DNA of 61,978 nt from a virus. The stretch is from IMG/VR virus record IMGVR_UViG_3300037042_000313, positions 1 to 61,978 of that record; one strand, written 5' to 3'. A program made the position numbers and the translations under genes. This document shows positions 1,543 to 17,536 of this stretch, piece after piece. Under the pieces are notes generated by a model, which ran no database searches, was not told where the DNA came from, and was given only the letters and a program-made list of their open reading frames with translations. Every line of letters starts with the position of its first letter. Position 1 is the stretch's first letter.

Positions 1543-1788
1543 CCAGTTCTCTGTGCGGCGGCTGCGAGGGTGTGTCGGATTGCGCTGTGGCTCTCGACGT
1601 ATTCCGTACAACAATGTTATGGATCGGGACCACTTTCCACCAGTTCTCTGTGCGGCGGCTGCGACGGGGTTTTTTATCGTCCGAGCGGTTCGTAGGACGA
1701 TACCAAGGTTTTTGGCCAAAGTCCATAGGGGAAACCCTAACTTTGTTAGATTTCTTGAATGTCCGCCAGTTCTCTGTGCGGCGGCTGC
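1543..1788 (+). repeat. Three copies of a 23-bp direct repeat
   Basis: Identical 23-base copies, beginning CCAGTTCTCTG and ending GGCGGCTGC, lie at 1543-1565, 1640-1662 and 1766-1788. Start-to-start spacings are 97 and 126 bases. Because 97 is not a multiple of three, the copies cannot all be read in one protein frame, so the conservation is at DNA or RNA level. Copies 1 and 2 follow TTTTT-rich stretches, and copy 3 runs straight into a TAACAAAGTTA palindrome at 1789. Confidence 0.9.
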
Positions 1789-1804
1789 TAACAAAGTTAT
1801 GAAT

Positions 1805-2291
1805 GTTACGCCTAATGTTACAGAAAAAGTGTATATGTTACGTGACACATTGCGCTAAGTCCTTGATTTTAAAGCAATGTTACGTGTTACGTTTTTTCAG
1901 GGTTTTTTATGAAATCCCACCAAGTACAAAACGGTGAAAAACGCAGCCATGAGCAATTCGTACTACCAAAGTCATTTTGGTGGCCATTCATATATACTCA
2001 TAACATTATAACTTTATAACATTACAAACATTTTTTCTTTTTTCTTCAATCAAATCAAGGACTTAGCGTGTTACGTCTTTTGTAGCCTTTTCACACTCCC
2101 CCCGCAATTTCGTAACATCTTTCGTAACACCACCCTGCCCCGAAACGTAACACTGCCCAACCCGCACCAGATGCCCGCCAACACCTCACCAATGCCCGAA
2201 ACGTAACATTACCCCAAACACACCAAAAGCCCGAAACGTAACATTACCAAAACCAGACCAAAAACCCACAACACCCCCGAAACGTAACATT
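1805..2291. repeat. Iteron-like GTTACG/CGTAAC arrays around AT-rich core
   Basis: GTTACG occurs at 1805, 1837, 1879, 1886 and 2070 (variant GTTACA at 1817). Its complement CGTAAC occurs at 2111, 2123, 2146, 2202, 2237 and 2283. The last four sit inside a 16-mer CCCGAAACGTAACAYT starting at 2139, 2195, 2230 and 2276. CGCTAAGTCCTTGATTT (1853-1869) is perfectly inverted at 2052-2068. Between the arms lies AT-rich DNA with two ATAACATTA repeats (2000, 2016). Iterons plus an AT-rich unwinding element suggest a replication origin; clustered operators are the alternative. Confidence 0.65.
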
Positions 2292-2335
2292 GTTAGCCCC
2301 CACCAGATGCACAACCTACTCGCACCCCAATTTGC

Positions 2336-2364
2336 TTGACATTAGACCCTTTTTGTGTTATACT
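2336..2364 (+). promoter_or_regulatory. Sigma70-type promoter P1
   Basis: TTGACA (2336-2341), a 17-base spacer and TATACT (2359-2364) give a near-consensus promoter. It and its leader closely resemble the promoter at 4631. It should start transcription near 2371 and drive the cluster of tiny genes from 2461. Confidence 0.93.
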
Positions 2365-2391
2365 ATAGGTTGAGTGGGAATTTAGTTGTTA

Positions 2392-2427
2392 GTTAGGTTT
2401 GGAATCCGCCCGACCTAACTTTGTTAG
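2392..2427 (+). promoter_or_regulatory. Leader stem-loop plus palindrome, copy 1
   Basis: In the presumed 5' leader, GTTAGGT (2392-2398) pairs with ACCTAAC (2413-2419) over a 14-base loop. It runs directly into the palindrome CTAACTTTGTTAG (2415-2427). The same arrangement with a different loop is found at 4690-4724, so the stem is conserved while the loop is not. A protein-bound operator or an RNA control element are both possible. Confidence 0.7.
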
Positions 2428-2460
2428 AAGTTAGACCGTTCAACCATTAGGAGTAACGAA

Positions 2461-2622
2461 ATGATCCTGAGAACCAGCAACCCGTTCGTCCGTGCCGTGT
2501 GCGCAATCACCCGCTCCCTGCCCTACGCAGTCCGCTCACGCTTGCCCCTGTACATCTACCACGTGCGCGTCGGCAACGACTGCACTAACTTTGTTAGGGT
2601 TTCTTTTACGTTTACTGTTTGA
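2461..2622 (+). CDS. Small hypothetical protein, 53 aa
   Basis: The ATG is preceded by TTAGGAG at good spacing and is the first gene after promoter P1. The product is basic in its first half (several Arg) and ends in a hydrophobic beta-like stretch (FVRVSFTFTV). The dispersed palindrome at 2586-2596 lies within the codons near the end. The TGA stop is followed by the ribosome site of the next gene. No family is recognised. Confidence 0.7.
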   Translation: MILRTSNPFVRAVCAITRSLPYAVRSRLPLYIYHVRVGNDCTNFVRVSFTFTV

Positions 2623-2633
2623 GGGGGGATGAG

Positions 2634-2870
2634 ATGAACAACAGAGTGAACAACCGCAACCTTGATTGGTCTGAGTGCCCCCTATGCGGGGATGATGTGA
2701 ACTCCGAGCGCATCGGGCTCGGCTACGTATTGTGCATGTGCTGCGGTGAGGAAGCAGCCCAACAAGTCAAGCACACCATCGTGCCCATGAACAAGTCGAA
2801 CTACATCTACGTCAGTCCCGGTAACCTAACATTGTTAGCCCAACTCAACCCCAAGAGGACCACAGCATGA
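2634..2870 (+). CDS. Small zinc-ribbon protein, 78 aa
   Basis: Start ATG 2634 follows a GAGGGGGGATGAG purine-rich site. The sequence has CPLCG (residues 15-19) and CMCCG (near 35-39), two Cys pairs typical of a zinc ribbon or treble clef, so metal binding is likely. The partner and function are unknown; such early phage proteins often bind DNA or host RNA polymerase, which is only inference here. A dispersed palindrome (2827-2837) lies within the coding sequence, and the stop overlaps the next start (ATGA). Confidence 0.8.
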   Translation: MNNRVNNRNLDWSECPLCGDDVNSERIGLGYVLCMCCGEEAAQQVKHTIVPMNKSNYIYVSPGNLTLLAQLNPKRTTA

Positions 2871-3115
2871 ACATCGACCGCAACACACTAGAAGCGCAAT
2901 ACATAGAACGCATCCTAGAAAGCATGGACTTGGATACGTTGGTAATGATTGCTCAAGAACACCTAGAGGGTGAGTTCAAGAAGTTCTCAGACGAAGAACT
3001 GCACAGCGAAGTAGCCATGCACTACCCCGACTTGCTCGACTTAGAGGAAACCGACTGGAAACAAGAGGGCCGTGACCTTGAGGACTTCGACATGCACACG
3101 AAGGAAGCACGATGA
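2867..3115 (+). CDS. Acidic hypothetical protein, 82 aa
   Basis: This strongly acidic protein (many Glu and Asp, especially residues 48-75) starts at an ATG overlapping the preceding TGA, with AAGAGGA upstream. It looks helical and shows no motif. Very acidic small early phage proteins can be DNA mimics or inhibitors of host DNA-binding proteins, but nothing here proves that. Its TGA overlaps the next ATG. Confidence 0.75.
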   Translation: MNIDRNTLEAQYIERILESMDLDTLVMIAQEHLEGEFKKFSDEELHSEVAMHYPDLLDLEETDWKQEGRDLEDFDMHTKEAR

Positions 3116-3213
3116 AAACGAGACGGGAAATACTAGCCCTAGCCTTTTTGTACTGCGTATACGCCGCTGCCCTTGTGGTGACTGCGTTGGATGTCTTTTA
3201 CTGGAGGCCATGA
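3112..3213 (+). CDS. 33-aa single-pass membrane peptide
   Basis: The ATG overlaps the stop of the preceding gene (ATGA), and GAAGGA stands upstream. The peptide has a positive N-terminus (KTRRE), then about 20 hydrophobic residues (ILALAFLYCVYAAALVVTAL), then a short tail DVFYWRP. This is the layout of a small inner-membrane protein with N-terminus in the cytoplasm. Function is unknown. It may be a superinfection or host-membrane modifier; holin activity is less likely in the early operon. Confidence 0.6.
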   Translation: MKTRREILALAFLYCVYAAALVVTALDVFYWRP

Positions 3214-3248
3214 TGAGCAGCAAAGAGCACAACGAAGGGAGAGCCTAA
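3210..3248 (+). CDS. Possible 12-codon mini-ORF
   Basis: ATG ATG (3210, 3213) follows GGAGG at short spacing and opens a 12-codon frame (MMSSKEHNEGRA). It stops at a TAA inside the palindrome TAACAATGTTA, whose ATG then starts the next gene. A leader peptide used for translational coupling is plausible; chance is the alternative. Confidence 0.3.
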   Translation: MMSSKEHNEGRA

Positions 3249-3250
3249 CA

Positions 3251-3367
3251 ATGTTAGTTTTCTACAGTGGGAAACTGATCGTCATCGAGACGAACCTAGA
3301 GTGGGCACTGCCCTACTGGAAACGCCGCAAGGCATCAGACAAACGCATTACTTTCATCATCAACTAA
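3251..3367 (+). CDS. Small hypothetical protein, 38 aa
   Basis: The start ATG lies inside the palindrome at 3246-3256 and is preceded by GAAGGGAGAG. The product (MLVFYSGKLIVIETNLEWAL at the start) has a beta-like hydrophobic N-terminus and a basic C-terminal half (KRRKASDKR). Not recognised. The tight packing and ribosome site support it being real despite its size. Confidence 0.55.
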   Translation: MLVFYSGKLIVIETNLEWALPYWKRRKASDKRITFIIN

Positions 3368-3393
3368 CCAAGCCAACACCAAGGAGAAATGAC

Positions 3394-4593
3394 ATGTGGG
3401 GATCAAACAGCACCATGAACAACCTGCCGCACGTACGCGAGTACGACCACGCACTCAAGATACTCAACACCACCAAGCCAATCAGCGGCAGTGGGCACAA
3501 CGCTGGGCGCGTACCTCTCGGTGCGCGTAAAGATGTGAGTAAGTATTGGGCTAGGTCGGGCTCGGTGGATGCCACCGATGTGGAGTTCATCCTCTACCAA
3601 ACGCCCATCATCACGTACAAAGCAGACGGGCGCATCATCGTCAGCATGGGCTCATGGAACAGCATCACCACCCGTGAGTTCATCAACACCATCTTGCGCG
3701 TCTCATGCTATGCCAAGAGTGGGAAGCCTGTGATTGAGTTGCACGGGCCAAGGAATGAAGACGGGACAGGCAACCCCAAGTCAATCATCCCTCATGCGGG
3801 AATCCTCCTGCGGTGCAACAAAACGCCCGACTCAAACTCCCAACCAGTTCTCACCTTCGACACCGAGGCCAAGCCCGTCATCATGGGCTACAGCATCAAC
3901 CGAGCCAAGGCTAACAATGTTAGAAAACGCTATTCGGAGTTCCGCAAGTACCTCAAGACAACAATATCCCTGCGCAAAACGCAGGTAGAGATAACGCACA
4001 CTTGGTACCACGGGATGAGACAGGCTGAGACCGAACCGACCTTCTACGATGCCATCGAGTACACCATCGGCGAGGTTGCCGACGGGCTCGGGATTGTCAA
4101 AGCCACATCAGAAAACGGGCTCAACCGCAGCCGAGTGAATCAGGCCGAGTGGAACCAACTGCACCGCAAGCCAGTGGGTCACATCCGTCCGCAGGGGTTC
4201 AACACGTACGAGCAATGGATTGCTCAGTACACAGCCAAGTGCGAGGAGTTCTTTGGTCTGGTCAAGAACAACCAGCCGGAGGAGACAAAGCACGCCAACT
4301 TCTACAAGGCGTTTTTAGTTCTGCTATGTATGCACGCACCGAACAGCCGACAGGCGCACTCAATCGAAGACCCATCTAAAGTGGTGAGCACTACGCCGAG
4401 GGACATAGAGACGAACTTTGAAGGAGCGTTCCGCAGGTACTACGCTGCTGATATCTTGGAAGAAGTAGCCATGAAGGGCGGCGTGCCACCGAACAAGACC
4501 TACATCGAGTGGATGTGGATGCACAACAGAGAAACCGTTAGCCAAGCAGAGCAGCGAGAGGTGGAAGACAAGAAGACTTCTATCCGCCTTTGA
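3394..4593 (+). CDS. Hypothetical protein, 399 aa
   Basis: I chose the ATG at 3394 because AAGGAG (3381-3386) sits seven bases upstream; the frame is open back to 3301 but that part overlaps the previous gene. It is the largest product of the P1 operon and is not recognised. It is soluble, of mixed alpha/beta composition, with several Trp in the C-terminal region (EWMWMHN near residue 375). No nucleotide-binding loop or nuclease signature is visible. A dispersed palindrome (3912-3922) lies within it. Operon position makes an early regulatory or host-interaction role likely, but this is inference. Confidence 0.8.
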   Translation: MWGSNSTMNNLPHVREYDHALKILNTTKPISGSGHNAGRVPLGARKDVSKYWARSGSVDATDVEFILYQTPIITYKADGRIIVSMGSWNSITTREFINTILRVSCYAKSGKPVIELHGPRNEDGTGNPKSIIPHAGILLRCNKTPDSNSQPVLTFDTEAKPVIMGYSINRAKANNVRKRYSEFRKYLKTTISLRKTQVEITHTWYHGMRQAETEPTFYDAIEYTIGEVADGLGIVKATSENGLNRSRVNQAEWNQLHRKPVGHIRPQGFNTYEQWIAQYTAKCEEFFGLVKNNQPEETKHANFYKAFLVLLCMHAPNSRQAHSIEDPSKVVSTTPRDIETNFEGAFRRYYAADILEEVAMKGGVPPNKTYIEWMWMHNRETVSQAEQREVEDKKTSIRL

Positions 4594-4630
4594 GCAGGGG
4601 AAACACCAACCAACACGTAACCCGATTTGC

Positions 4631-4659
4631 TTGACATTAGAGGCTATTTGTGGTATACT
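4631..4659 (+). promoter_or_regulatory. Sigma70-type promoter P2
   Basis: TTGACA (4631-4636), a 17-base spacer and TATACT (4654-4659) nearly match consensus. The flanks are almost the same as at promoter P1 (ATTTGCTTGACATTAGA before, ATAGGTT-AGTGGGAATTTG after). It drives the AAA+/VWA operon. Confidence 0.93.
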
Positions 4660-4689
4660 ATAGGTTAAGTGGGAATTTGTTTGTTAGTA

Positions 4690-4724
4690 GTTAGGTTTGG
4701 ATGGGCCAGACCTAACATTGTTAG
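4690..4724 (+). promoter_or_regulatory. Leader stem-loop plus palindrome, copy 2
   Basis: GTTAGGT (4690-4696) pairs with ACCTAAC (4710-4716) over a 13-base loop unlike the loop at copy 1, followed by CTAACATTGTTAG (4712-4724). The stem is kept and the loop differs between the two leaders, which points to selection on structure. Confidence 0.7.
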
Positions 4725-4750
4725 TTTGTTAGTTCATTAGGAGTTTAGAC

Positions 4751-5815
4751 ATGGCTGAGATCAACTTTGGTAAGACCGTTACCCTGAAGCAAGCGGCAAC
4801 GCTTATCCGTACGAACCCAGAGACACGCTTCCTCTTGCAAGGCGAGCCGGGCATCGGCAAGAGTTCTTTGCTTGAGTCCATTGCAGGTGGGCTGGGTTAC
4901 GAACATGCGTATATCGACGTACCCAATATGGACCTCGGTGACATTGCAATGCCCGTGATCGATCACGATAACAAAGTTACACGCTACTACCCGAACGCTC
5001 GGTTCGGTGTGCATACGGGCAAGCCGTTGGTCATCATGCTCGACGAGTTCTCGAAGGGCGCGGACCCGGTGAAGAACATGCTCCACCCGATGTTGGAGAA
5101 GGCGAACCCCCGACTCGGCGACATTCCACTGGCTAAGGACACCATCGTTTTCCTCACGGGCAACCTGTCCACCGACGGCGTAGGCGACAGCCTCAAAGCG
5201 CACTCGCGTAACCGACTCGTTGCCGTTACTGTGTCCAAGCCCAGCGCAGAGGAGTGGATCGAGTGGGCGATCAACAAGGGCATCGAGGCCGAGGTCATCG
5301 CATGGGTGAATCAGTACCCCCACGCCCTCGCTTCCTATACCGACGCTGCCCAAGGGGATAACCCCTACATCTACCACCCACGCAAAACGCAGCACGGGTT
5401 TGTCACCCCACGTAGCCTTGAGACTGCATCTAACATTGTTAGAACACGCAAGTTGAACGACACCGACAGCGTTATCGCTGCTCTGTCAGGTGCAGTGGGT
5501 GAGAGTGCAGCCCGTGATATGCAAGCGTACATCGAGTTCAGCGATCAACTCCCAACGTGGGAGGCGACGATCAAGAACCCAGAGACAACGCCTGTGCCTA
5601 CGTCACCAGCAGCATGTGCCATCGTGTGCTTTGGTGCTATCGCACGTATGACCAAGGAGACGATCACCCCGTTCATGAAGTACCTCGAACGCTTCGATCC
5701 AGAGTGGCAAGCCGTGTTCGCAATCAACATCGCCAAGGCACCAACCAAGCAATCAATCGCGTTCAGCAGCAAGGCGTTCGCCGACTGGGTTGCAAAGAAC
5801 CAAGACTTGCTGTGA
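4751..5815 (+). CDS. MoxR/CbbQ-type AAA+ ATPase
   Basis: A 354-aa AAA+ ATPase. Walker A is GEPGIGKS (residues 31-38), Walker B VIMLDE (94-99), and the sensor-1 strand is IVFLTGN, followed by an arginine-containing RNRLVAVTV segment. This pattern belongs to the MoxR/CobS/CbbQ group, whose members form hexameric remodelling machines working with a von Willebrand A partner. That partner is encoded two genes downstream (6033). The ATG lies after TTAGGAG in the P2 leader. A dispersed palindrome (5431-5441) sits inside the gene. The substrate is unknown. A porphyrin chelatase role, as in CobS/CobT, is unlikely in a phage; protein remodelling is more plausible. Confidence 0.88.
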   Translation: MAEINFGKTVTLKQAATLIRTNPETRFLLQGEPGIGKSSLLESIAGGLGYEHAYIDVPNMDLGDIAMPVIDHDNKVTRYYPNARFGVHTGKPLVIMLDEFSKGADPVKNMLHPMLEKANPRLGDIPLAKDTIVFLTGNLSTDGVGDSLKAHSRNRLVAVTVSKPSAEEWIEWAINKGIEAEVIAWVNQYPHALASYTDAAQGDNPYIYHPRKTQHGFVTPRSLETASNIVRTRKLNDTDSVIAALSGAVGESAARDMQAYIEFSDQLPTWEATIKNPETTPVPTSPAACAIVCFGAIARMTKETITPFMKYLERFDPEWQAVFAINIAKAPTKQSIAFSSKAFADWVAKNQDLL

Positions 5816-6027
5816 GGGTCAAGCAATCAAGTCACTACCCCGATGACACGGGGACCCACACCTACAAAGTGTGGGTTGAACCAAACTTTCCGGGCGGGGA
5901 TAAACCCTCCACGTTCCGGGTGTACCGTGGCCTTGGGTACTGGAACCGCAAGCAGTTGCTAGCGGAATTCCCGTACCACGAAGAACACATCGCCATTGCA
6001 ATGGCTAAGTTAGCAACACAGGAGTGA
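5812..6027 (+). CDS. Small hypothetical protein, 71 aa
   Basis: Starts with GTG overlapping the ATPase stop (GTGA), so it is probably translated by coupling. The product has aromatic and charged residues (TYKVWVEPN, TFRVYRGLGYWNRKQ) suggestive of a small beta-rich fold. It lies between the ATPase and the metallopeptidase-VWA gene and could be an accessory part of that module; no family is recognised. Confidence 0.65.
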   Translation: MRVKQSSHYPDDTGTHTYKVWVEPNFPGGDKPSTFRVYRGLGYWNRKQLLAEFPYHEEHIAIAMAKLATQE

Positions 6028-6032
6028 TAACA

Positions 6033-7283
6033 ATGTTAGAAGAACGCAAACTGCAGAAGGCGAAGATCAGCCTGATGCGCAATCCGAAGTTCGCCCTGTG
6101 GTCGGGCATCCTGATGGTCGGCAAGACCAGCGTGGTGGACAACATCCCAACCGCTTGCACCAACGGACGGGACGAGCAGTACGGTCGGGCTTTCGTTAAG
6201 TCCCTGCCCGACAAAGAACTCTCGTTCCTCGTACTGCACGAGGCATTGCACAAAGCACTGCGGCACCTGACCACGTGGCGGAAGTTGCACGATGAGAACG
6301 CGAAGCTCGCCAATGCAGCGTGTGACTACGTGATTAACCTGATGCTGCTCGACCTCGATCCGTCAGGCGAAGCGATCACCATGCCCAAGATCAAGGACGG
6401 TCCCGAGAAGGGCAAGCCGATGGGCTTGATCGACGCTCGGTTCAAGGGGATGAACGCCAAGCAAGTGTTCGACCTGCTCAAGCAGGAGCAGCAAGAGGGT
6501 GAGGACGGGATTCCCGATGACGGAAACGGGAACCCCGTTAACGGGACTGGGCAGGTGCCGAAGGATGGTGCGGGGTTGGACGACCACGACTGGGACGGTG
6601 CCGCCGAGATGACCGAGGGTGAGCGCAAGCAACTCGAACGGGAAGTGGATCAGGCTATCCGTCAAGGGATCATGGCTGAGAAGAAGGCAGGTAGGGGTGC
6701 GGGCAACCTGAGCCGCGAGTTGCAGGACTTGCTCGAACCCAAGGTGAATTGGCGCGAGGCATTGCGTGAGTTCGTTAAGTCTACGTGCCACGCTAAGGAT
6801 GCATCGTCATGGCGTCGGGTCAATCGCCGCTTCCTCAGCACGGGTGTGTATATGCCGAGCATGATCGGCGAGAAGGTCGGGCACTTGGTCATCGCTGTGG
6901 ATACGTCAGGCTCGGTTGGTGAGAAGGAGTTGGCCGAGTTCCTGTCCGAGGTCAAGGGTGTTGCCGAGGAGGTCAACCCCGACAAGGTGGACTTGATCTA
7001 TTGGGATTCACGAGTTGCAGCGCACGAGGAGTACGAGGGAGGTGGGGATGTTTCTAACATTGTTAGCTCGACCAAGCCCAAGGGCGGTGGCGGTACATCG
7101 CCGAGTTGCATCTCTGAGTTCTTGGCTAACAAGAAGATTACTCCCGAGTGCGTCATCGTCCTCACCGACGGCTACGTGGGTTCAGATTGGGGTCATGGAT
7201 GGACGGCTCCGGTACTCTGGGCCATCGTGGGTGGGAATACTGTTGTCGCGCCGAATGGCAAGACGGTTCATGTTGGAAGTTAA
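6033..7283 (+). CDS. HExxH metallopeptidase-like plus VWA domain protein
   Basis: A 416-aa two-domain protein. The N-terminal domain carries HEALH (residues 69-73), a zinc HExxH motif, followed by ANAACDYVIN (94-103), where Asp98 could be the third ligand. This fits the DUF2201 putative metallopeptidase family. A Gly/Asp-rich linker (about 155-200) leads to a C-terminal von Willebrand A domain with MIDAS DTSGS (290-294), a GGGGTSP segment and VLTDGY. The start is ATG 6033, eight bases after AGGAG and inside the palindrome 6028-6038; an upstream GTG at 6024 is less likely. It is the expected partner of the MoxR-type ATPase. The substrate is unknown. Confidence 0.87.
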   Translation: MLEERKLQKAKISLMRNPKFALWSGILMVGKTSVVDNIPTACTNGRDEQYGRAFVKSLPDKELSFLVLHEALHKALRHLTTWRKLHDENAKLANAACDYVINLMLLDLDPSGEAITMPKIKDGPEKGKPMGLIDARFKGMNAKQVFDLLKQEQQEGEDGIPDDGNGNPVNGTGQVPKDGAGLDDHDWDGAAEMTEGERKQLEREVDQAIRQGIMAEKKAGRGAGNLSRELQDLLEPKVNWREALREFVKSTCHAKDASSWRRVNRRFLSTGVYMPSMIGEKVGHLVIAVDTSGSVGEKELAEFLSEVKGVAEEVNPDKVDLIYWDSRVAAHEEYEGGGDVSNIVSSTKPKGGGGTSPSCISEFLANKKITPECVIVLTDGYVGSDWGHGWTAPVLWAIVGGNTVVAPNGKTVHVGS

Positions 7284-7293
7284 GGAGAACGAA

Positions 7294-7515
7294 ATGGTTG
7301 TACTTTCATTTAACTACGGGGAGTTTGTTCTCCCTCCCAAGGATGCCATCACCATCATGGAGATGCTGCAGAAGGCAGAGAAGTACGAGACCAAGTACAT
7401 AAGCGGTGGGGATAGCACCCACCACATCTACACGAACAACGATAGTTTCACCGCCAAGGTAATTAGCGATGACATGTATCGCATGGCTAAGTTGGCTGGC
7501 AAGCCAGAGAAGTAA
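7294..7515 (+). CDS. Small hypothetical protein, 73 aa
   Basis: ATG 7294 follows AAGGAG at ideal spacing; an in-frame ATG at 7270 lies inside the previous gene and has no such site. The product begins VVLSFNYGEFVLP and has a helical middle (ITIMEMLQKAEKYE). It shows no motif. It is part of the ATPase/VWA operon. Confidence 0.7.
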   Translation: MVVLSFNYGEFVLPPKDAITIMEMLQKAEKYETKYISGGDSTHHIYTNNDSFTAKVISDDMYRMAKLAGKPEK

Positions 7516-7638
7516 CACCCGAGATGCACGGTAACACCAACAAAGTTATCGTGCGCCCATAACCCCCGCCAGTTCCCCCCGCCACCGGTCGGACACCGGT
7601 AACAATGTTAGATATAAATCAATCATCAGGAGTTAGTT
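7516..7638 (+). other. Short intergenic stretch with palindrome
   Basis: These 123 bases contain a near-palindrome CAACAAAGTTA (7538) and the perfect palindrome TAACAATGTTA (7600-7610), then AGGAG for the next gene. No clear promoter or terminator is seen, so readthrough from P2 is expected. Confidence 0.5.
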
Positions 7639-8502
7639 ATGTCTATTAGCGCATCAGCAGTATTAGTTGAACTCAACATCTCAGTGTGGCCCGCAAGCAA
7701 GATCGACCGCGAGACCACTGAGCGTGTCAACTTCGACGCATCAGCAGTGTCGAACGCAAGCCAGACCAAGAAGAACCTGTTCGCAGGTACGGGTCTGCGT
7801 AAGGACATCGAGAAGTTCGCCGCTCGTGTTCGCCTGTACCACAACCTCAACACGCTGCCGTGGGCAGACAAGGGTGAGCGCCTCGCGCCGACCAAGTTGT
7901 TCATCGAGTACAAGGCAGCGATGAATACGTTCGAGTCCCAATTCCACGGTATGTGCAGCAACTTCTTCGTGGAGTATCCGCGTCTGGTTTCGGAAGCACC
8001 GACCAACTTAGGCAAGCTGTTCCGCGCCGACGACTACCCACCAATCGAGGAGGTGCGGGAGAAGTTCGCCTTCCGTAGATCAACGAATCCTCTGGCGGAC
8101 GCTGGAGATTTTCGCTTAGACATACCAGCGCAGGACTTGGCTGAGATTCAGGCGTCGTACGAGGAGAAGTTCAATGAGCGTCTGGCCGAGGCGATGAAGG
8201 CACCGTGGGATCGACTGCACAAGATGCTCACGGGCATCAGCGACAAGCTGACCGATGACACGGCTGAGGATAGCGACGTACCCAAGAAGCGGTATTACGA
8301 CAGCCTCATCACCAACCCGCTTGAGTTGTGCGACTTGTTGACCAAGCTCAACGTGACCAACGACCCCAAGCTGGAAGAGGCGCGTCGGCAGTTGGAACTA
8401 ACAATGTTAGCCACTGACATTGAGCGTATCAAGGAGGATGCAGATACACGCAGCAGCGTGAAGTCCAAGGTCGATGCGATCTTGAGTAAGTTCGAGTGGT
8501 AA
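7639..8502 (+). CDS. DUF3150-like protein, 287 aa
   Basis: The N-terminus (VLVELNISVWPASKIDRETT, residues 9-28) resembles what I remember of DUF3150, a family often found beside MoxR-type ATPases and VWA proteins. The rest is highly charged and predicted helical, with probable coiled coil in residues 150-200 and 235-285. The ATG follows CAGGAG. A palindrome (8399-8409) lies in the coding sequence near the 3' end. Together with the ATPase and the metallopeptidase-VWA protein it probably forms one functional module. The family assignment is from memory and uncertain. Confidence 0.6.
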   Translation: MSISASAVLVELNISVWPASKIDRETTERVNFDASAVSNASQTKKNLFAGTGLRKDIEKFAARVRLYHNLNTLPWADKGERLAPTKLFIEYKAAMNTFESQFHGMCSNFFVEYPRLVSEAPTNLGKLFRADDYPPIEEVREKFAFRRSTNPLADAGDFRLDIPAQDLAEIQASYEEKFNERLAEAMKAPWDRLHKMLTGISDKLTDDTAEDSDVPKKRYYDSLITNPLELCDLLTKLNVTNDPKLEEARRQLELTMLATDIERIKEDADTRSSVKSKVDAILSKFEW

Positions 8503-10674: not shown

Positions 10675-10697
10675 AGCCACCTTCGGGTGGCTTTTTT
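10675..10697 (+). terminator. Rho-independent terminator
   Basis: AGCCACC-TTCG-GGTGGCT with a UUCG tetraloop is followed by a T-run. It ends the P2 operon. Confidence 0.93.
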
Positions 10698-10701
10698 ACG
10701 C

Positions 10702-10729: not shown

Positions 10730-10757
10730 CAAGGCTCGAAAACTACTGGAGGATGAG

Positions 10758-11108
10758 ATGTCGTACATGGCGTTTGGAGACGCACCCCTAGTCATAAGGG
10801 ATGGGCAACTGATATGCCCCGGATGCAACGGTGAGTGGATACACCAGCGCAACACCACGGTCTTCGCTAGAGACGAAGACGACGATGTAACAACTGTCCT
10901 TGCTCAAGATGGCACAGATGGACAGGTAGTTAAGTTCCCATCTAGGGACACATGCAACCCTAGCCCACGTAGGCAGGGGATCATCATCGAGTTCGAGTGT
11001 GAGGGTTGTCATTACAACTCCCCACTACAGCAATTTCGTCTGGCAATAATTCAGCACAAGGGCAATACATACGTGGAGTGGCTAAATGGCATCAACCCCG
11101 GAACGTAA
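10758..11108 (+). CDS. Zinc-binding hypothetical protein, 116 aa
   Basis: ATG 10758 follows GGAGG. The pairs CPGC (near residue 19) and CEGC (near residue 80) suggest one zinc site uniting two strands, separated by an acidic loop (ARDEDDDV). It is the first gene after promoter P3 and overlaps the VRR-NUC gene by 23 bases. Not recognised beyond the metal motif; a small replication or recombination accessory is possible. Confidence 0.7.
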   Translation: MSYMAFGDAPLVIRDGQLICPGCNGEWIHQRNTTVFARDEDDDVTTVLAQDGTDGQVVKFPSRDTCNPSPRRQGIIIEFECEGCHYNSPLQQFRLAIIQHKGNTYVEWLNGINPGT

Positions 11109-11388
11109 GGTTAAGGAGCGGATAAAGCATCTGCTCAAAGAGAACAACGTCTACTACGCAATGCCTATGGGTACGGGCTACGGTAACTCAGGCGTCCCCG
11201 ATTTCCTCTGCTGTGTCAACGGTCAGTTCCTCGCTATCGAGGCTAAGGCTGGCAAGAACAAGCCGACTGCGTTGCAAGAGAAGAACATTGCAGACATTAG
11301 GGCTTCTGGGGGTATCGCCCTAGTGGTTAACGAAGACCTGACAGAACTTACAGCGGTTATAGAGAATTATTCGAGGGGGATAATTTGA
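11086..11388 (+). CDS. VRR-NUC domain nuclease, 100 aa
   Basis: A minimal PD-(D/E)xK nuclease. GNSGVPDF (residues 33-40, Asp39), AIEAKAG (50-56, Glu52 and Lys54) and Gln64 form the VRR-NUC active site seen in FAN1 and in stand-alone phage proteins that cut branched DNA. The length fits the stand-alone family. It overlaps the preceding gene, and its TGA overlaps the TTG start of the polymerase, so the three are co-translated. A Holliday-junction or replication-fork resolvase role is likely. Confidence 0.88.
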   Translation: MASTPERKVKERIKHLLKENNVYYAMPMGTGYGNSGVPDFLCCVNGQFLAIEAKAGKNKPTALQEKNIADIRASGGIALVVNEDLTELTAVIENYSRGII

Positions 11389-13205
11389 GCATCCTGACAA
11401 TCGACTTCGAGACGTACTACTCGCAGATATTCAGCCTAACAAAGTTAACTACAGAGGAGTACATCCGCTCCCCACAGTTTGAAGTTATCGGTGTTTCCGT
11501 ACAGGTAGACGATGGTGAGCCCGTGTGGTTCAGCGGCTCCCCAGAAAAAACCCACCAGTTCCTCCAACAGTTCGACTGGGCCAACTCGATTGCACTAGCC
11601 CACAACGCTATGTTCGACGGGGCTATCCTGAGTTGGGTCTACGGGATTACCCCTAAAGGCTGGCTGGATACGCTGTGCATGGGACGAGCACTGCACGGTA
11701 CGGAAGTAGGTGGAAGTTTGAAGGTTCTGGCTACTCACTACGGGCTAGGCGAGAAGGGTACGGAGATCGGCAACGCTCTCGGGCTTAGGCGTGAGGACTT
11801 TGGCACGGACCAACTGGAACGCTATGGCGAGTACTGCAAGAACGATGTGGCCTTGACTTGGGCGCTGTTCAACGCAATGAACGCCGACTTCCCCGCTATC
11901 GAACTGCGGCTCATCGACCTGACGATCAAGATGTTCACGGAGCCAGTGCTGCATCTTTCGGGGGCGGAACTTCACGCACACCTTATGTCAGTCCGGGCAC
12001 GTAAAGTAGATACCCTCGGTGCGTACGACCAAGATGTACTGATGAGCAACCCCAAGTTCGCCGACGCGCTAACAAAGTTAGGTGTCACCCCGCCGATGAA
12101 GGTTAGCCCTGCGAACGGCAAGCAGACCTATGCCTTCTCTAAGACGGACGAGGGGTTCAAGGAGCTACTTGAGCACGAGAACGTGGAAGTTCAGGCATTG
12201 GTTGCGGCTCGACTCGGTATCAAGTCCACCATCGAGGAGACACGGACCGAGCGGTTTCTTGGTATATCAAAACGTGGGCCACTACCCGTACCCCTGCGGT
12301 ATTACGCTGCTCATACAGGCCGATGGGGTGGCGACGACAAGGTGAACCTTCAGAACCTCCCACGCAACTCCACGCTCAAGAACTGCATCATCCCGCCAGA
12401 GGGTTACGTCATCCTCGACTCTGACTCATCCCAGATCGAAGCGCGTACGCTGGCATGGCTAGCAGGACAAGAAGACTTGGTTGAAGCGTTCGACAAGGGC
12501 GAGGATGTGTACCGCATCATGGCGTCACGCATCTACAACAAGCCAGAAGAAGAAATAACAAAAGGAGAGCGATTTGTTGGTAAGACAACCATCTTGGGTG
12601 CGGGATACGGTATGGGTGCGGCGAAGTTTCAGGCGCAACTCAAGAACTTCGGCGTCGAGGTTGAGTTGGATGAGTGCAAGCGGATCATCGACACGTACCG
12701 TAGCACATACCCAGCAATCCCTAAGCTGTGGAACTCAGCCAACGAGTCCCTCAAAGCGATCCTCAACAACCAGAGTACAACACTAGGCCGAGAGGGTTTG
12801 CTGAACATCGAGGGTACTAACGGTGTTAGGTTGCCGAATGGGTTGCGGCTCAAGTATCCGAACCTACGGCTACGTCAGGACGAGGAGACAGGCAGGAATG
12901 AACTCGTCTACGACACGAAGAAAGGGAAAGCTCTTATCCCGACTCGGCTGTATGGTGGAAAAATGGTGGAGAACGTCTGTCAGGCGTTAGCGCGTATCGT
13001 CATTGGTGAGCAGATGCTTTTGGTCGCCAAGAAGTACCGTGTGGTGATGACCGTGCATGACGCGATTGCTTGCATCGTGCCGAAAGCAGAAGCTGACACT
13101 GCTAAAGAATACATTGAACTGTGTATGCGTTTGCGCCCCAAGTGGGCGCTTGAACTCCCTTTGAACTGTGAGGCTGGATATGGAGAAAGTTACGGTGATT
13201 GTTGA
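11385..13205 (+). CDS. Family A DNA polymerase with 3'-5' exonuclease
   Basis: 606 aa. The N-terminal DEDD exonuclease begins TIDFETY (Asp7, Glu9), with AHNAMFD and a later YCKNDV. The polymerase domain has motif A DSSQIE (Asp347-Glu352), motif B R396-x3-K400 to Tyr408 (GKTTILGAGYG) and motif C VHDA (His558, Asp559). It copies the phage genome. The start is TTG 11385 overlapping the upstream stop, with GAGGGGG before it; no ATG is available ahead of the exonuclease motif. Palindromes at 11437 and 12070, and a variant at 12818, lie inside it. It is shorter than bacterial Pol I and lacks a 5' nuclease domain. Confidence 0.96.
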   Translation: MSILTIDFETYYSQIFSLTKLTTEEYIRSPQFEVIGVSVQVDDGEPVWFSGSPEKTHQFLQQFDWANSIALAHNAMFDGAILSWVYGITPKGWLDTLCMGRALHGTEVGGSLKVLATHYGLGEKGTEIGNALGLRREDFGTDQLERYGEYCKNDVALTWALFNAMNADFPAIELRLIDLTIKMFTEPVLHLSGAELHAHLMSVRARKVDTLGAYDQDVLMSNPKFADALTKLGVTPPMKVSPANGKQTYAFSKTDEGFKELLEHENVEVQALVAARLGIKSTIEETRTERFLGISKRGPLPVPLRYYAAHTGRWGGDDKVNLQNLPRNSTLKNCIIPPEGYVILDSDSSQIEARTLAWLAGQEDLVEAFDKGEDVYRIMASRIYNKPEEEITKGERFVGKTTILGAGYGMGAAKFQAQLKNFGVEVELDECKRIIDTYRSTYPAIPKLWNSANESLKAILNNQSTTLGREGLLNIEGTNGVRLPNGLRLKYPNLRLRQDEETGRNELVYDTKKGKALIPTRLYGGKMVENVCQALARIVIGEQMLLVAKKYRVVMTVHDAIACIVPKAEADTAKEYIELCMRLRPKWALELPLNCEAGYGESYGDC

Positions 13206-13371
13206 TTACGCATACCCCTGCATGATGGCAGAGAAAGCATTGAAGCAAGTACATAACGCTATGCTAAACAAAGACTTTGATACTGCTGTTGAGGCTGGTA
13301 TCCAAGCCCTAGTAGAAACTAAGTTAATGGTATTAGCGATCAAAGATATGAAGGATGCCGCAAATGGATGA
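13180..13371 (+). CDS. Small helical protein, 63 aa
   Basis: ATG 13180 overlaps the end of the polymerase gene. The peptide is helical (EKALKQVHNAMLNKDFDTAVEAGIQAL), resembling a small helical-repeat or dimerising fold. Unknown function; overlap suggests co-expression with the polymerase. Confidence 0.6.
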   Translation: MEKVTVIVDYAYPCMMAEKALKQVHNAMLNKDFDTAVEAGIQALVETKLMVLAIKDMKDAANG

Positions 13372-13588
13372 GCCGAAGAAGGAAATTTACAACGGTGGCC
13401 CAGCTTTTCCGCTGGACTTGAAGGTTGGTGATGACCACCGCTGGGGACACGGGATGTCTCTGCGGGATTACTTTGCTGCGGCGGCGATGCAGGGGCAGAT
13501 GGTTGGTTATCAAGGTCAGATGTGGGGGCGCATAGCCAAAGAAGCATACGAACAAGCCGACGCAATGATTGAGCAGCGTACAAAATGA
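13364..13588 (+). CDS. Conserved phage small protein, 74 aa
   Basis: ATG 13364 follows AAGGA and overlaps the previous stop. NGGPAFP and GMSLRDYFAAAAMQG are hallmarks of a small protein common in proteobacterial phages and prophages whose function is not known to me. The C-terminal helix is acidic-basic mixed. ATGA overlap with the next gene. Confidence 0.75.
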   Translation: MDEPKKEIYNGGPAFPLDLKVGDDHRWGHGMSLRDYFAAAAMQGQMVGYQGQMWGRIAKEAYEQADAMIEQRTK

Positions 13589-14253
13589 GTAAGCCTATTG
13601 TCTGGTCATTCAGTAGCCTGAAAACATTTCAGCAGTGCCCACGTAAGTATTACCACACCAAGATTGCTAGGGATATTGTTGAGCCAGACACTACGGCAAC
13701 TCTGTACGGTAAGACTGTACATACGGTAGCAGAAGAGTACGTGCGGGATGGCACCCCAATACCTCCCGCATATTCATATATCCAAGCAACCCTAGATGAA
13801 CTCAGGGCGATACCGGGGGAGAAGCTATGCGAAGTGAAGCTGGGGCTGACGAAGGAGTTGGAAAGCTGCGACTTCAGTGCTCCGAATGTGTGGTGGCATG
13901 GGATTGCCGACTTGGTGGTTATCAACCGGGAGAAGGGGATAGCACACTCGGTGGACTACAAGACAAGCAAGAGTGCGAGATATGCGGATGTGAAGCAACT
14001 CGATTTAATCGCTTGTGGTCTATTTGCGAAGTTCCCGGAAATCCAGAGGGTGAAATCGGCTCTTATATTTGTGGTGAGCAAGGAGTTCGTTAAGGCCGAG
14101 CACCACGTAGAGATGATGAAGAAGTACGTTGAGAAACCCGCACAAGATGTTGCACGTATCGAAGCAGCATTAGTTAATGGTGTGTGGAATCCTAGTCAAA
14201 GTCCACTGTGCAGATTCTGCTCAGTTAAATCGTGTGAATATAACCGGAGTTAA
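13585..14253 (+). CDS. Cas4/RecB-like Fe-S PD-(D/E)xK exonuclease
   Basis: 222 aa. FSSLKTFQQCPRKYY (residues 9-23) with Cys18, and the C-terminal cluster Cys209, Cys212, Cys217, give the four cysteines of a 4Fe-4S cluster. His46, Asp109 (WHGIADLVV), Asp124 and Lys126 (VDYKTSK) are the nuclease residues of the Cas4/AddB family. It should act as a DNA exonuclease in replication or recombination. No Cas1, Cas2 or CRISPR array is nearby, so it is a phage recombination-type nuclease and not an adaptation gene. Its TAA stop is part of the palindrome at 14251. Confidence 0.88.
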   Translation: MSKPIVWSFSSLKTFQQCPRKYYHTKIARDIVEPDTTATLYGKTVHTVAEEYVRDGTPIPPAYSYIQATLDELRAIPGEKLCEVKLGLTKELESCDFSAPNVWWHGIADLVVINREKGIAHSVDYKTSKSARYADVKQLDLIACGLFAKFPEIQRVKSALIFVVSKEFVKAEHHVEMMKKYVEKPAQDVARIEAALVNGVWNPSQSPLCRFCSVKSCEYNRS

Positions 14254-14255
14254 CA

Positions 14256-14372
14256 ATGTTAGATAAAGACGATAAATACAAAGAGTCTTCGTGGTTGGTT
14301 ACGGGGGCAATGTTTGTTGGTTTCGTATTAGTACTCTCTTGGTTGCTGGTATTTGTTGGGGCGGTTACGTGA
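14256..14372 (+). CDS. 38-aa membrane peptide
   Basis: The start ATG lies inside palindrome TAACAATGTTA (14251-14261), with GGAG six bases upstream. A charged N-terminus (LDKDDKYKESS) is followed by a single long hydrophobic segment (WLVTGAMFVGFVLVLSWLLV). It is a probable inner-membrane peptide. Function is unknown; too short for a classical holin but a small membrane effector is plausible. Confidence 0.6.
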   Translation: MLDKDDKYKESSWLVTGAMFVGFVLVLSWLLVFVGAVT

Positions 14373-14394
14373 GTGGGAAACTGGAATAAAAACT

Positions 14395-14625
14395 ATGATT
14401 AAAAGTAAAGCAATTAGTTGGAATAAGGGTAAGCCCTTGGCAGTAGGTTGGTACCGTACTCGCGGTAAAGACTTCGTTTGGACTGGAACCTACCGCTGGT
14501 GGGATGGCGAGCGGTGGTCGTGGGCAGCGTTTGAGCACGAGAGCGCCGAACGAGCAGGTAAGTGGGCCGCTAAGAAAGAGGCCGTGGGTTACTTCAATGT
14601 GCTCCTGTGGAGTGATATGCCGTGA
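14395..14625 (+). CDS. Trp-rich small protein, 76 aa
   Basis: ATG 14395 has only a weak upstream purine stretch. The protein is unusually rich in Trp and other aromatics (VGWYRTRGK, TGTYRWWDGERWSWAAFEH) and basic. The fold looks like a small beta-sheet domain. Not recognised. The stop overlaps the next GTG start. Confidence 0.6.
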   Translation: MIKSKAISWNKGKPLAVGWYRTRGKDFVWTGTYRWWDGERWSWAAFEHESAERAGKWAAKKEAVGYFNVLLWSDMP

Positions 14626-15146
14626 ACATCGAAGGATTACTTGAGCGGGTCTATGAGAAGTGCATCCCCGACGGAGGGTGCATGAACTGGACAGGGGCAA
14701 CGCAGTCAGTCTGCAAAAGCCCGATCATGCGCAAACTGGAGGAAGGTGGTCGTGCTGTATCTCTACGGAGATACATGCTGGAGATCGCACAGGGTAAAAA
14801 AGTATACGCAGCGCGTGTGGCTACCTATATGTGCGGTAACCCTAAGTGCGTGAAGTTGGAACACCTTGGTGAGATCACCCGCAAGACCCTGCAGGAGAGG
14901 AACATATCCCTAATGAACGCAGGGCAGCGGCTAATCAAGGCTAAGCGAGTCAGCGATAAGGCGCGGAAGCGAGCCAAGCTGACCCCCGAACTCGCCCGAG
15001 AGATAGCTGCATTGAACGAGCCCCAGCGAGTGATAGCCCAGAAGTACGGCATCGGCCAGTCAACAGTTAGCCAGATCAAACGTGGCGCTACGTGGCAGGA
15101 CTACACCAACCCATTCTTGCGGCTAGCAGAGGTGCGTGGCCTATGA
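14622..15146 (+). CDS. HNH-like endonuclease with C-terminal HTH, 174 aa
   Basis: GGCMNWTGA and VSLRRYMLEI...MCGNPKCVKLEHL (residues 66-102) match phage HNH endonucleases, with Cys residues in CGNPKC. The C-terminus LAREIAAL...QRVIAQKYGIGQSTVSQIKRG is a clear helix-turn-helix. Such freestanding enzymes are often mobile homing nucleases. Start GTG overlaps the previous TGA. The catalytic His pair is less obvious than in canonical HNH proteins, so activity is uncertain. Confidence 0.7.
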   Translation: MNIEGLLERVYEKCIPDGGCMNWTGATQSVCKSPIMRKLEEGGRAVSLRRYMLEIAQGKKVYAARVATYMCGNPKCVKLEHLGEITRKTLQERNISLMNAGQRLIKAKRVSDKARKRAKLTPELAREIAALNEPQRVIAQKYGIGQSTVSQIKRGATWQDYTNPFLRLAEVRGL

Positions 15147-15337
15147 ACCGCCCCGATAGCCCCTGCATTGCTGTGTGTACAACTTTGTATACCGACAAGT
15201 GTTCTGGCTGCGGGCGTACGTACATGGAAGTCGCGCAGTGGAACAGTTTGACTGACGAAGAACGAGAGGTGGTGTGGCAGCGGATCGACGCCGAGGCTAC
15301 ATCGTGGCGTTACAACCGTTATAAGGATAGGGCATGA
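15143..15337 (+). CDS. DUF1289 family protein, 64 aa
   Basis: DSPCIAVCTT, DKCSGCGRTYMEVAQW and LTDEEREVVWQRI follow the DUF1289 pattern closely: four Cys likely bind a metal, then a Trp and a helical tail. Bacterial members are small proteins of unknown function; a phage copy is noteworthy. ATGA-type overlaps with both neighbours. Confidence 0.82.
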   Translation: MNRPDSPCIAVCTTLYTDKCSGCGRTYMEVAQWNSLTDEEREVVWQRIDAEATSWRYNRYKDRA

Positions 15338-15510
15338 GTACTACCCCGCCCCCAAAAAAGCCCAGCCTGATCGACAAGTCGCTCAAGACTGAGATGGATC
15401 GCCGGATGGCTAGGGTGCGGGAGTACTTAGTCACTATCGAAGACCTGACACCCTTAGCCAAGTTTGAATATACGATTCTGATTGCTAAGCTAACTGGAGA
15501 GAAGAAATGA
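15334..15510 (+). CDS. Small charged protein, 58 aa
   Basis: The ATG overlaps the previous TGA and its own TGA overlaps the next ATG, so it fits the operon tiling exactly. The peptide is Pro/Lys-rich at the N-terminus (TTPPPKKPSLIDK) and helical afterwards. Not recognised. Confidence 0.65.
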   Translation: MSTTPPPKKPSLIDKSLKTEMDRRMARVREYLVTIEDLTPLAKFEYTILIAKLTGEKK

Positions 15511-15809
15511 GTACCTACGGTGAGATGAAAGCCAAATACAACGAAGTAAACAAACACCAGCAAAACTACACAGATGTAGTCCTACGCTTGTACACCGATA
15601 AGAGCGATCTCTCGATGGACGCAGCAGCAGAGATCGTAAGACTGCGCCAAGCATTACGCTGGCAGGACGACCGAGACGGTAGAATTGGCACACACTCGGA
15701 TAACTGCTATACATATGGCTACCGCCACTACGAGTGTGCCCTCCACAGGATCAAGCATCTGGAGGAAGATCATAGGTTTGCACAGGCGCTAGGCCCGTGC
15801 GGTAAATAA
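15507..15809 (+). CDS. Hypothetical protein, 100 aa
   Basis: ATG 15507 follows GGAGAG. A helical N-terminal half (MKAKYNEVNKHQQNY) is followed by RLRQALRWQDDRDGRIG and a Tyr/His/Cys-containing stretch (CYTYGYRHYECALHRIKHL) that could bind metal. No family recognised. Confidence 0.65.
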   Translation: MSTYGEMKAKYNEVNKHQQNYTDVVLRLYTDKSDLSMDAAAEIVRLRQALRWQDDRDGRIGTHSDNCYTYGYRHYECALHRIKHLEEDHRFAQALGPCGK

Positions 15810-15819
15810 CGGAGTCATC

Positions 15820-16095
15820 ATGCCCTACGTCACCAAGCCCCGCCCGTACAAAAAAGAGTACCAACAACAAGTTGCTAGAGGCGAAGGTCCAGCACGAGCC
15901 AAGCGCGAAAGTGCTCGCAACGAAATGGACAAAAAAGGGATTGACCGCAAGGGCAAAGACATAGATCATTCGATCCCCTTGTCAAAGGGTGGGACCAACG
16001 CCCCGAGCAACCTGAAGCTGAAGGCACCGAGCGCAAACCGTTCGTTCAGCCGCAACTCGGACCACACAGTGAAAGTCAACAAGCCGAAAAAATGA
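15820..16095 (+). CDS. HNH-type nuclease-like protein, 91 aa
   Basis: DIDHSIPLSKGGTNAPSNLK (residues 48-67) and PSANRSFSR are typical of short phage HNH proteins (DH-x-P-x3-GG-N-x4-NL ... NRS). The protein is very basic. It may be a small DNase near the replication genes. CGGAG lies before ATG 15820; the end overlaps the helicase start. Confidence 0.75.
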   Translation: MPYVTKPRPYKKEYQQQVARGEGPARAKRESARNEMDKKGIDRKGKDIDHSIPLSKGGTNAPSNLKLKAPSANRSFSRNSDHTVKVNKPKK

Positions 16096-17480
16096 ACCTA
16101 TCAGAGTATGAGTGGCCCCGTCCGCACGGGTTCACCCCGTTCGAGCATCAGAAGACAACAGCAGAGTTCCTCATCTCCAACCGCAAGGCGTTCTGCTTCA
16201 ACGAGCAGGGCACGGGGAAAACAGCATCAGTGATTTGGTCCGTGGACTATTTGATGCAGCGTGGGTTAGTGAAACGTGTGCTAGTCATATGCCCGCTGTC
16301 GATCATGAAGTCGGCATGGCAGAACGACCTGTTCAAGTTTGCGATCCATCGCTCTGTTGCTGTAGCCTATGGCTCGGCTAAGAAGCGCAAAGAGATCATC
16401 GAGTCTGGCGCTGAGTTCGTCATCATCAACTTCGACGGTGCGGGTATCGTCAAGAAAGAGATCATGGCTGGCGGGTTCGACCTCATCGTGGTAGATGAAG
16501 CGTCGGCATACAAGAACCCACAGACCGAACGCTGGAAAGACCTCCGAGATATCACTAAGGTGGTGAAGGGGTTGTGGATGCTGACAGGTACGCCTGCAGC
16601 CCAGTCTCCTATGGATGCTTACGGATTGGCAAAGCTAATCAATCCAAAGGGTGTCTCTCCATTCTTGGGTCAGTTCCGCGACTCAGTTATGTTCAAGGTA
16701 GGTGAGTTCCGGTACATCCCGCGACCCGAAGCCAAGCACATCGTCCACAAGATACTGCAGCCAGCGATTCGCTTTGAGAAGTCTCAATGCCTTGACCTGC
16801 CTCCGGTTACGCACGTTGACCGAGATGCCCCGCTCACCCCCCAGCAGCTTAAGTACTACCAAATACTGAAGAAGCAGATGCTGATAGAGGCGGATGGGGA
16901 AGAAGTCTCCGCCGTCAATGCTGCGGTAAAGATCAACAAGCTACTACAGATTGCTGGTGGCGCTGTCTACACCGACAACAAAGAGATCATTGAGTTCGAC
17001 GTAAGCAGTCGGCTTAACGTAGTACGGGAAGTCATAGAGGAATCAAGCCACAAGGTTCTGGTCTTCGTCCCGTTCACGCACACAATCGACCTGCTGAAGA
17101 AGCACCTAGACAAACACAACATCACCTCCGAAGTCATCAATGGGTCGGTACCAGTCAATCGCAGGTCCGATATCGTCAAGACTTTCCAAGAAGATGAGAA
17201 CCCCCGAGTCCTCATCATTCAGCCGCAAGCAGCCTCCCACGGGCTAACACTAACAGCAGCGAACACAATCATTTGGTACGCTCCTTGTTCTAGTGTTGAG
17301 ACGTACCTGCAAGCGAACGCACGGATTGACCGCCCCGGTCAGGTCAACAACATGACCATCGTGCACGTGAAGGGTTCCTCCGTCGAGGAAAAGATGTACG
17401 CCCTTCTACGTAACAACGTAGGCAACCACCAGCGCGTGATTGACCTCTACCGCCAAGAAATATCTGAAGAAACCGCTTGA
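16092..17480 (+). CDS. SNF2-type DEAD/DEAH helicase, 462 aa
   Basis: A complete superfamily 2 helicase core. FTPFEHQ is the Q-like motif (residues 14-20), Walker A EQGTGKT (38-44), motif II VVDEAS (133-138), and LTGTPA motif III. The C-terminal lobe has GLTLTAANTIIWYAPCSS, and QANARIDRPGQ is motif VI with arginine finger. The spacing is SNF2-like. It remodels or unwinds DNA, probably during replication or repair. The start overlaps the HNH-like gene. Confidence 0.93.
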   Translation: MNLSEYEWPRPHGFTPFEHQKTTAEFLISNRKAFCFNEQGTGKTASVIWSVDYLMQRGLVKRVLVICPLSIMKSAWQNDLFKFAIHRSVAVAYGSAKKRKEIIESGAEFVIINFDGAGIVKKEIMAGGFDLIVVDEASAYKNPQTERWKDLRDITKVVKGLWMLTGTPAAQSPMDAYGLAKLINPKGVSPFLGQFRDSVMFKVGEFRYIPRPEAKHIVHKILQPAIRFEKSQCLDLPPVTHVDRDAPLTPQQLKYYQILKKQMLIEADGEEVSAVNAAVKINKLLQIAGGAVYTDNKEIIEFDVSSRLNVVREVIEESSHKVLVFVPFTHTIDLLKKHLDKHNITSEVINGSVPVNRRSDIVKTFQEDENPRVLIIQPQAASHGLTLTAANTIIWYAPCSSVETYLQANARIDRPGQVNNMTIVHVKGSSVEEKMYALLRNNVGNHQRVIDLYRQEISEETA

Positions 17481-17504
17481 CAATGTAAAGCGTCTTGCTA
17501 AGAT
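17477..17504 (+). promoter_or_regulatory. Sigma70-type promoter P4
   Basis: TTGACA (17477-17482) overlaps the helicase stop codon; a 16-base spacer leads to TAAGAT (17499-17504). The palindrome TAACAAAGTTA (17515-17525) sits just past the expected start site and abuts the AGGAG ribosome site of the next gene, an ideal place for an operator. Confidence 0.8.
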
Positions 17505-17536
17505 AGACCTCCCGTAACAAAGTTAGGAGATCAGAG

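Follow-up and report, generated by a model that had tools for sequence, protein, structure and literature searches.

Dispersed operator arrays were found in the literature for few phages. The subject here is a further one, an array of the short palindrome TAACNNNGTTA (TAAC-NNN-GTTA) in the early arm of the virus record IMGVR_UViG_3300037042_000313, the whole 61,978 bases of which are called the window. The early arm carries the replication genes and runs rightward over about 0.5-22 kb, and the late arm runs leftward. The array recurs in many relatives with a different spacing between its half-sites, and its sites are very probably bound by a dimeric, spacing-specific regulator. A search of open-licence papers returned no account of a CTAAC...GTTAG array or of arrays that change their spacing.

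In Cluster A phages (L5, Bxb1), 20-30 short repressor sites called stoperators are spread genome-wide, most of them away from promoters. These sites are 13-14 bp long, asymmetric, bound by a monomer and oriented with transcription; their sequence diverges with the repressor, a stop to elongation has been proposed for them, and the phages are temperate, with an integrase or parABS (PMC6550527, PMC9283540, PMC5559632). The present array also consists of short dispersed sites, 22 in number, though within 15.8 kb of the early arm only, and their placement at +20 to +85 of early promoters would be compatible with a repressor that blocks elongation. In contrast to Cluster A, the sites are symmetric rather than asymmetric 13-14 bp elements oriented with transcription, no integrase or ParB was found in the records searched, and the candidate protein is a different one. 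Because two defining features of Cluster A, the oriented asymmetry and the integrase or parABS, were not found here, the array is not filed as a member. The likeness to L5-type stoperators drawn in the original prediction is supported for the dispersed, selected distribution of the sites and not supported for the prophage role.

The palindromes of Cluster O (Corndog) are closer in symmetry. The source describes 34 dispersed 17-bp copies of TGTTCGG-NNN-CCGAACA, A/T-rich in their 3-bp centre, of which roughly one third are coding and most stand away from promoters; it reports no integrase or parAB and no known binder, leaves the purpose open, and judges a transcriptional role unlikely (PMC4351075). 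The array in the window shares the dispersed, symmetric, A/T-centred sites in a phage with no integrase found and appears to work alike without being a member, since its motif is CTAAC-AWW-GTTAG rather than a 7+3+7 palindrome and the phages are different ones. Unlike in Cluster O, a site closely follows 48 of 51 strong early promoters, the spacing shifts among relatives, and there is a candidate binder. The conserved inverted repeats of phiC31 are another palindromic repressor site, with many intergenic copies over the early region of a temperate phage whose repressor has been identified. The T1-like lytic phages (T1, Stevie) have 16-20 dispersed short repeats of unknown role, which differ from this array in being 22 bp long, asymmetric and of a single orientation (PMC4319613).

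The array in the window

The window has 23 copies of the palindrome, of which 22 lie within 1738-17525, against a chance expectation of 0.71 and a largest count of 4 in 100 dinucleotide shuffles; a reversed control pattern has no copy in the window. The 22 perfect sites start at 1738, 1789, 2285, 2416, 2586, 2827, 3246, 3912, 4713, 4969, 5431, 6028, 7055, 7600, 8399, 9107, 10403, 11437, 12070, 12818, 14251 and 17515. The array was originally reported with 21 early copies and none in the late arm; its existence is borne out, the number is 22, and there is one late-arm copy, TAACCCCGTTA at 43656, which is treated as chance because its centre is CCC and the G found after most sites is missing. 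The extended consensus is C-TAAC-AWW-GTTA-G, with the preceding C in 15 and the following G in 19 of the 22 sites, and the full CTAAC...GTTAG in 13. The outer bases have perfect dyad symmetry, and the centres (AAA 7, AAT 6, ATT 5, TTT 3, GGT 1) occur in both orientations, though not equally. Over the first 22.2 kb, inverted TAAC/GTTA pairs number 22 at gap 3 and 0-2 at each other gap from 0 to 15, and direct and everted pairs number 0-4 and 0-1 per gap, so that gap 3 alone is enriched.

Eleven of the sites lie wholly in predicted coding sequences, three cross a gene end and eight lie outside genes. Even though about 87% of 1600-17600 is coding by our own choice of open reading frames (ORFs), half of the sites (11 of 22) are outside genes or across gene ends. 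When the early genes were shuffled synonymously 2000 times, the mean was 0.45 and the highest count 3, as against the 11 coding sites, and this codon-shuffle control agrees with the earlier suggestion that the codons accommodate the motif. Chance, base composition and codon bias as causes of the array are ruled out by the dinucleotide shuffles, the synonymous shuffles and the gap spectrum, and host restriction bias is ruled out by the absence of the motif from the late arm except for a single copy and by the different spacings of relatives.

Spacing classes among relatives

A DNA polymerase query of viral contigs gave at least 595 confirmed relatives, from which 80 loci were kept as the sample. 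Many of these uncultured relatives have the array, with a spacer of 3, 4 or 5 bp that is mostly constant within a phage. Based on a rule of at least three sites of one gap and three times the next gap, 18 of the 80 loci belong to gap 3, 26 to gap 4 and one to gap 5; among the 35 unclassed loci, 31 have under 4 kb of sequence ahead of the polymerase. Where at least 4 kb precedes the DNA polymerase gene, 26 of 32 loci have at least three sites of one gap, and in those 26 the main gap is used by 236 of 245 sites (gaps 2-6 counted). The other six are L039, L044, L045, L053, L059 and L076; L059 has TGAC-N4-GTCA instead, at eight sites.

Two coding sites were compared across the loci. In the ATPase gene, the codons for S-N-I-V-R at 5431..5441 spell the gap-3 site in 14 of 14 gap-3 rows, 6 of 26 gap-4 rows and the single gap-5 row not at all. 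Those for E-L-T-M-L at 8399..8409, in the gene at 7639-8502, spell it in 10 of 10 gap-3 rows, one of five gap-4 rows and not in the one unclassed row. Through two loci taken from one contig, six records are counted doubly in the former list and two in the latter. L051 (gap 3) and L064 (gap 4), whose records are L160 and L134, respectively, have ATPases that are 98% identical, and their intergenic and gene-start sites stand at corresponding places with spacers that differ by one base, while two coding sites of L051 are gone in L064 through synonymous codons. The gap-4 phage L135 retains the exact codons of its gap-3 relatives L160-L162, as if rewriting of the array were still under way. With a spacing that is mostly fixed in each phage, matched sites that differ in gap and coding sites that are erased synonymously, this pattern shows selection acting on the DNA for a spacing-specific and probably dimeric binder. 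The earlier proposal of dispersed symmetric sites under selection for a probably dimeric regulator, spread like stoperators, is supported.

This large uncultured group amounts to a natural experiment, in which close relatives with the same genes have arrays of different spacing. It suggests that a phage can rewrite some 20 dispersed sites as a set, allows the binder to be tested through a comparison of two homologous genes, and lets the joint evolution of a regulator and all its sites be followed. More distant phages have arrays with other half-sites. The cultured Rhizobium phage RHph_TM3_14A (L086), with a polymerase at 36.6% identity, has a GTTACC-N6-GGTAAC array, with 29 copies of TTACC-N5/6-GGTAA in 50 of its 60.9 kb, 18 of them inside annotated genes; its sites are not confined to the early arm, as seven of the 29 fall beyond the limits of the rightward block, 8202-35616 in L086. 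This phage is a possible laboratory model. Two contigs of marine metagenome-assembled genomes (MAGs), L169 and L171, with polymerases about 40% identical, have ATTAG-N5-CTAAT eight and seven times. No such array is present in the 50,000 of 64,113 bases of KPP25 that were examined.

Early promoters and the first early gene

The early promoters, which we take to be those with the consensus hexamers, are followed closely by array sites. The promoter TTGACA-N17-TATACT at 2336..2364 (+ strand), with a predicted start near 2371, has the site 2416..2426 at about +45, and a second copy at 4631..4659 (+ strand), with a predicted start near 4666, has the site 4713..4723 at about +47, ahead of the AAA+ ATPase gene. 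Among 51 distinct TTGACA-N17-TATAAT early promoters in the loci, 48 have an array site at +20 to +85, a range in which 4% of random positions have one, and six have a site at -85 to -20. In a slightly wider count of promoters, 26 of 56 site offsets fall within +41 to +47. This downstream placement favours an elongation roadblock. A second promoter type, with N16, occurs near the polymerase gene and further downstream (L064:9632, L051:16106, L049:15033 and similar). Its TTGACA is often extended towards a palindrome over the -35 box, in many cases TTGACA-N-TGTCAA, which is a possible target of the Cro-like helix-turn-helix (HTH) protein encoded at 18881; an array site often lies 85-102 bp upstream of the N16 copies ahead of the polymerase.

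The best candidate for the array-binding regulator is the 168-residue orphan protein of the first early gene (549..1055, + strand), which rather probably is the binder. This gene lies between the terminase and the first array promoter in all six early arms read. In 52 of 54 loci, a perfect site is present between 300 bp upstream of the gene and its first 70 bp; the window has the one-mismatch site TAACATTGTTG upstream, at 377..387 (+ strand). In the close pair L160 and L134, most shared genes are 62-98% identical but the first genes only 25%; hhalign shows both types to be homologues (probability 97.3, E 2.3e-11). The gap label changes once on the tree of the first gene (33 gap-4 and nine gap-3 rows, with 16 of 58 unlabelled), as compared with four changes on the ATPase tree (30 loci, at least two forced, that is, required by well-supported branches) and four on the VWA tree (28 loci, all four forced). 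The first gene belongs to a fast-evolving orphan family that is swapped between these two relatives. The swap is strong evidence for this candidate, and the covariation across the tree, which is modest, weaker evidence. Viral-contig queries gave 52 loci with a first gene of the G005 type and five of the G012 type, so that the sampling leans to these two; the window's own first gene as a query found no relative among the viral contigs.

Based on these features, the array would consist of operators to which a dimeric regulator encoded by the phage itself binds. Each phage keeps largely to a single spacing of the half-sites TAACa and tGTTA, and a change of regulator would lead to rewriting of the array site by site. 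The regulator, most likely the product of the first early gene, would have a site upstream of its own gene in nearly all relatives examined. Its dimers would be bound within the early transcribed regions, about 20-85 bp and often some 45 bp from the start, and at further points of the operon. There they may obstruct RNA polymerase as roadblocks and so lower early expression, a stoperator-like action with symmetric sites, probably during lytic growth. The sequences themselves show the array, the selection at synonymous positions, the consistency of the spacing classes and the sites close to promoters; the identity of the binder, its dimeric binding, the block to elongation and its timing are inferred from these. 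As a whole, an operator array that acts as an early roadblock is the best explanation, with about an even chance of being right, and the prospects are similarly balanced for the regulator acting mainly by blocking elongation.

Several observations weigh against this explanation. The single change on the first-gene tree is found in just 26% of bootstrap trees. After relabelling (43 rows, with L138 taken as gap 3 by its whole record, mixed phages split off, and 15 of 58 rows with fewer than five sites dropped), gap 3 requires three changes, one of them forced, and gap 4 seven, three of them forced. Five of the 43 rows are mixed, so that spacing is not absolute. L160 and L134 also differ in a 62-residue ORF without a counterpart and a 65-residue ORF that is 41% identical. 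The first-gene protein has no recognised DNA-binding fold: the window protein has no Pfam match up to E 0.5, Foldseek finds nothing at E 2 or below in the PDB with the whole model or residues 30-116, and the matches to viral models are at E 4 or above. Counted over distinct contexts, the centre has a strand bias (AAA 21 against TTT 4, AAAA 42 against TTTT 11, AAAT 273 against ATTT 79). A purely symmetric DNA site needs no such bias, which leaves room for an RNA or polar role, and a transcribed site at +45 could act as RNA; codons, together with start ATGs in AAT and AAAT sites, may account for the bias. As to the protein itself, the AlphaFold model is mostly helical (predicted local distance difference test score, pLDDT, 80.5; 86.0 for residues 30-116 alone). 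A sequence search of the PDB gave nothing below E 0.28, PHROGs gave weak matches only (best 0.0026), PADLOC gave none, and VIA structural comparison of the first-gene models gave Z of at most 4.1 and 2.7; the absence of fold matches is not evidence of a new fold. A search for a leftward promoter from which the site upstream of the first gene would lie at +45 gave no convincing one.

Other explanations and the phage genome

An RNA role for the array would make each transcribed palindrome a small hairpin recognised by an antiterminator, by a processing enzyme or by a regulator of translation, comparable to lambda nut or start-codon hairpins. The sites do fall within early leader RNA, and a purine-rich stretch resembling a ribosome site precedes 38 of 91 AAT and 104 of 273 AAAT distinct contexts, as against 12 of 79 for ATT and 2 of 79 for ATTT. 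Promoter-proximal gap-4 centres also include 13 AACT and two AAAA with no AGTT or TTTT; yet the commonest centres occur in both orientations at promoter-proximal sites (AAT 2, ATT 5 and TTT 1 at gap 3; AAAT 19 and ATTT 11 at gap 4). The site forms its own hairpin in the predicted fold of three of five sites, but not in the other two, both of which are promoter-proximal. Since an RNA loop need not have a uniform length in each phage, and many loci have a site 81-93 bp upstream of the weakly predicted first-gene start, an RNA element is improbable. The binder could instead be one of the proteins resembling known regulators, with another factor setting the spacing: the ribbon-helix-helix (RHH)-like protein at 9727-9936, the HTH protein at 18881-19120 or the HTH-DUF3310 protein at 9929-10405. 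These are widespread in the loci that cover them, and the 18881 protein matches Cro-like and other HTH families. They fit worse, however, because they are nearly the same in phages with different spacings, with best cross-class identities of 94% (9727), 85% (18881) and 95% (9929). The HTH protein at 10423-10653, proposed earlier as a binder together with those at 9929 and 18881, is found in none of the 81 loci searched. The 9727-9936 protein, RHH-like by our reading of its sequence, has no PHROG or Pfam match and no homologue in the L085-L088 stretches of RHph_TM3_14A, KPP25 and Rollin, and it does not follow the spacing. There is little to recommend any of these proteins as the regulator. Hardly more credible is a host-encoded binder to which phages fit their spacing. 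As to the host, the search of MAG contigs gave just eight matches (a beta-proteobacterium, Legionella, an archaeon, Dehalococcoidia and others), which are read as mis-binned or unplaced phage pieces. Against such a binder, the first gene differs along with the spacing in the otherwise close pair L160 and L134, and gap and half-site change among relatives with similar genes.

A use in replication or DNA organisation deserves more weight, though it too is unlikely. An initiator-like protein would bind iterons and, as dimers, the palindromes, and so control or couple replication or organise the DNA, as plasmid Rep proteins do with iterons or MatP with matS. The stretch from the first gene to the first array promoter contains, at 1804..2289, an iteron-like cluster of six TGTTAC and six GTAACA around an AT-rich stretch, a possible replication origin. 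Its 12 hexamers in 510 bp make 23.5 per kb, as against 0.3 and 0.45 elsewhere. Many relatives, gap-3 as well as gap-4, have comparable clusters 3' of their first gene; L143, L149, L152 and L157 have only a single hexamer copy. The half-site TGTTA is common to iterons and array, the site at 2285 is half iteron and half array site, and some coding sites (9107, 11437 and 12070, for example) lie a long way from both strong promoters found in the window. On the other hand, the placement of a site within +20 to +85 at 48 of the 51 early promoters points to transcription, ParB_N was found in none of nine records, and both L160 and L134 have the iterons despite first genes that are 25% identical. The two functions could be combined in an orphan protein that reads TGTTA as iterons at the origin and as dimers on the array and so couples replication to roadblocks on early transcripts. 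On a swap of the gene for a homologue with another dimer geometry, the whole array would be rewritten from 3 to 4 bp, through single-base indels in intergenic DNA and, within genes, through sites lost and gained by synonymous change; this elaboration is likewise unlikely.

The tyrosine integrase family PF00589 was not found in nine phage records, one of which is a 15-kb fragment, the sole matches of that search being in a MAG chromosome, or in any of five records of a further set that includes the window; the records may be incomplete. The resolvase-type recombinase family PF00239 and ParB_N (PF02195) were each found in none of nine records; ParA was not searched. Since no integrase, resolvase or ParB was found, a lytic early switch seems likelier than the prophage silencing first proposed as the purpose of the array; the phage may yet form lysogens extrachromosomally or by other means.

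Recognizable early genes of the window encode the AAA+ ATPase (4751), a DUF2201/VWA protein (6024), a family A DNA polymerase (11385), a RecB-like nuclease (13585) and an SNF2 helicase (16092), and a primase/helicase gene follows at 19120. The leftward late arm includes the terminase (59679-61202), portal (57162-59669) and major-head-type protein (53273-54184) genes. A stretch of about 36 bases at 88-123 recurs near the record end, at 61920-61960, which suggests a circular or terminally redundant genome; the relative G016 has a terminal repeat of 127 bases. Inside the late gene 38995-41412, the heptamer CTGTAGC occurs eight times, on both strands, within 500 bases (40697-41200).

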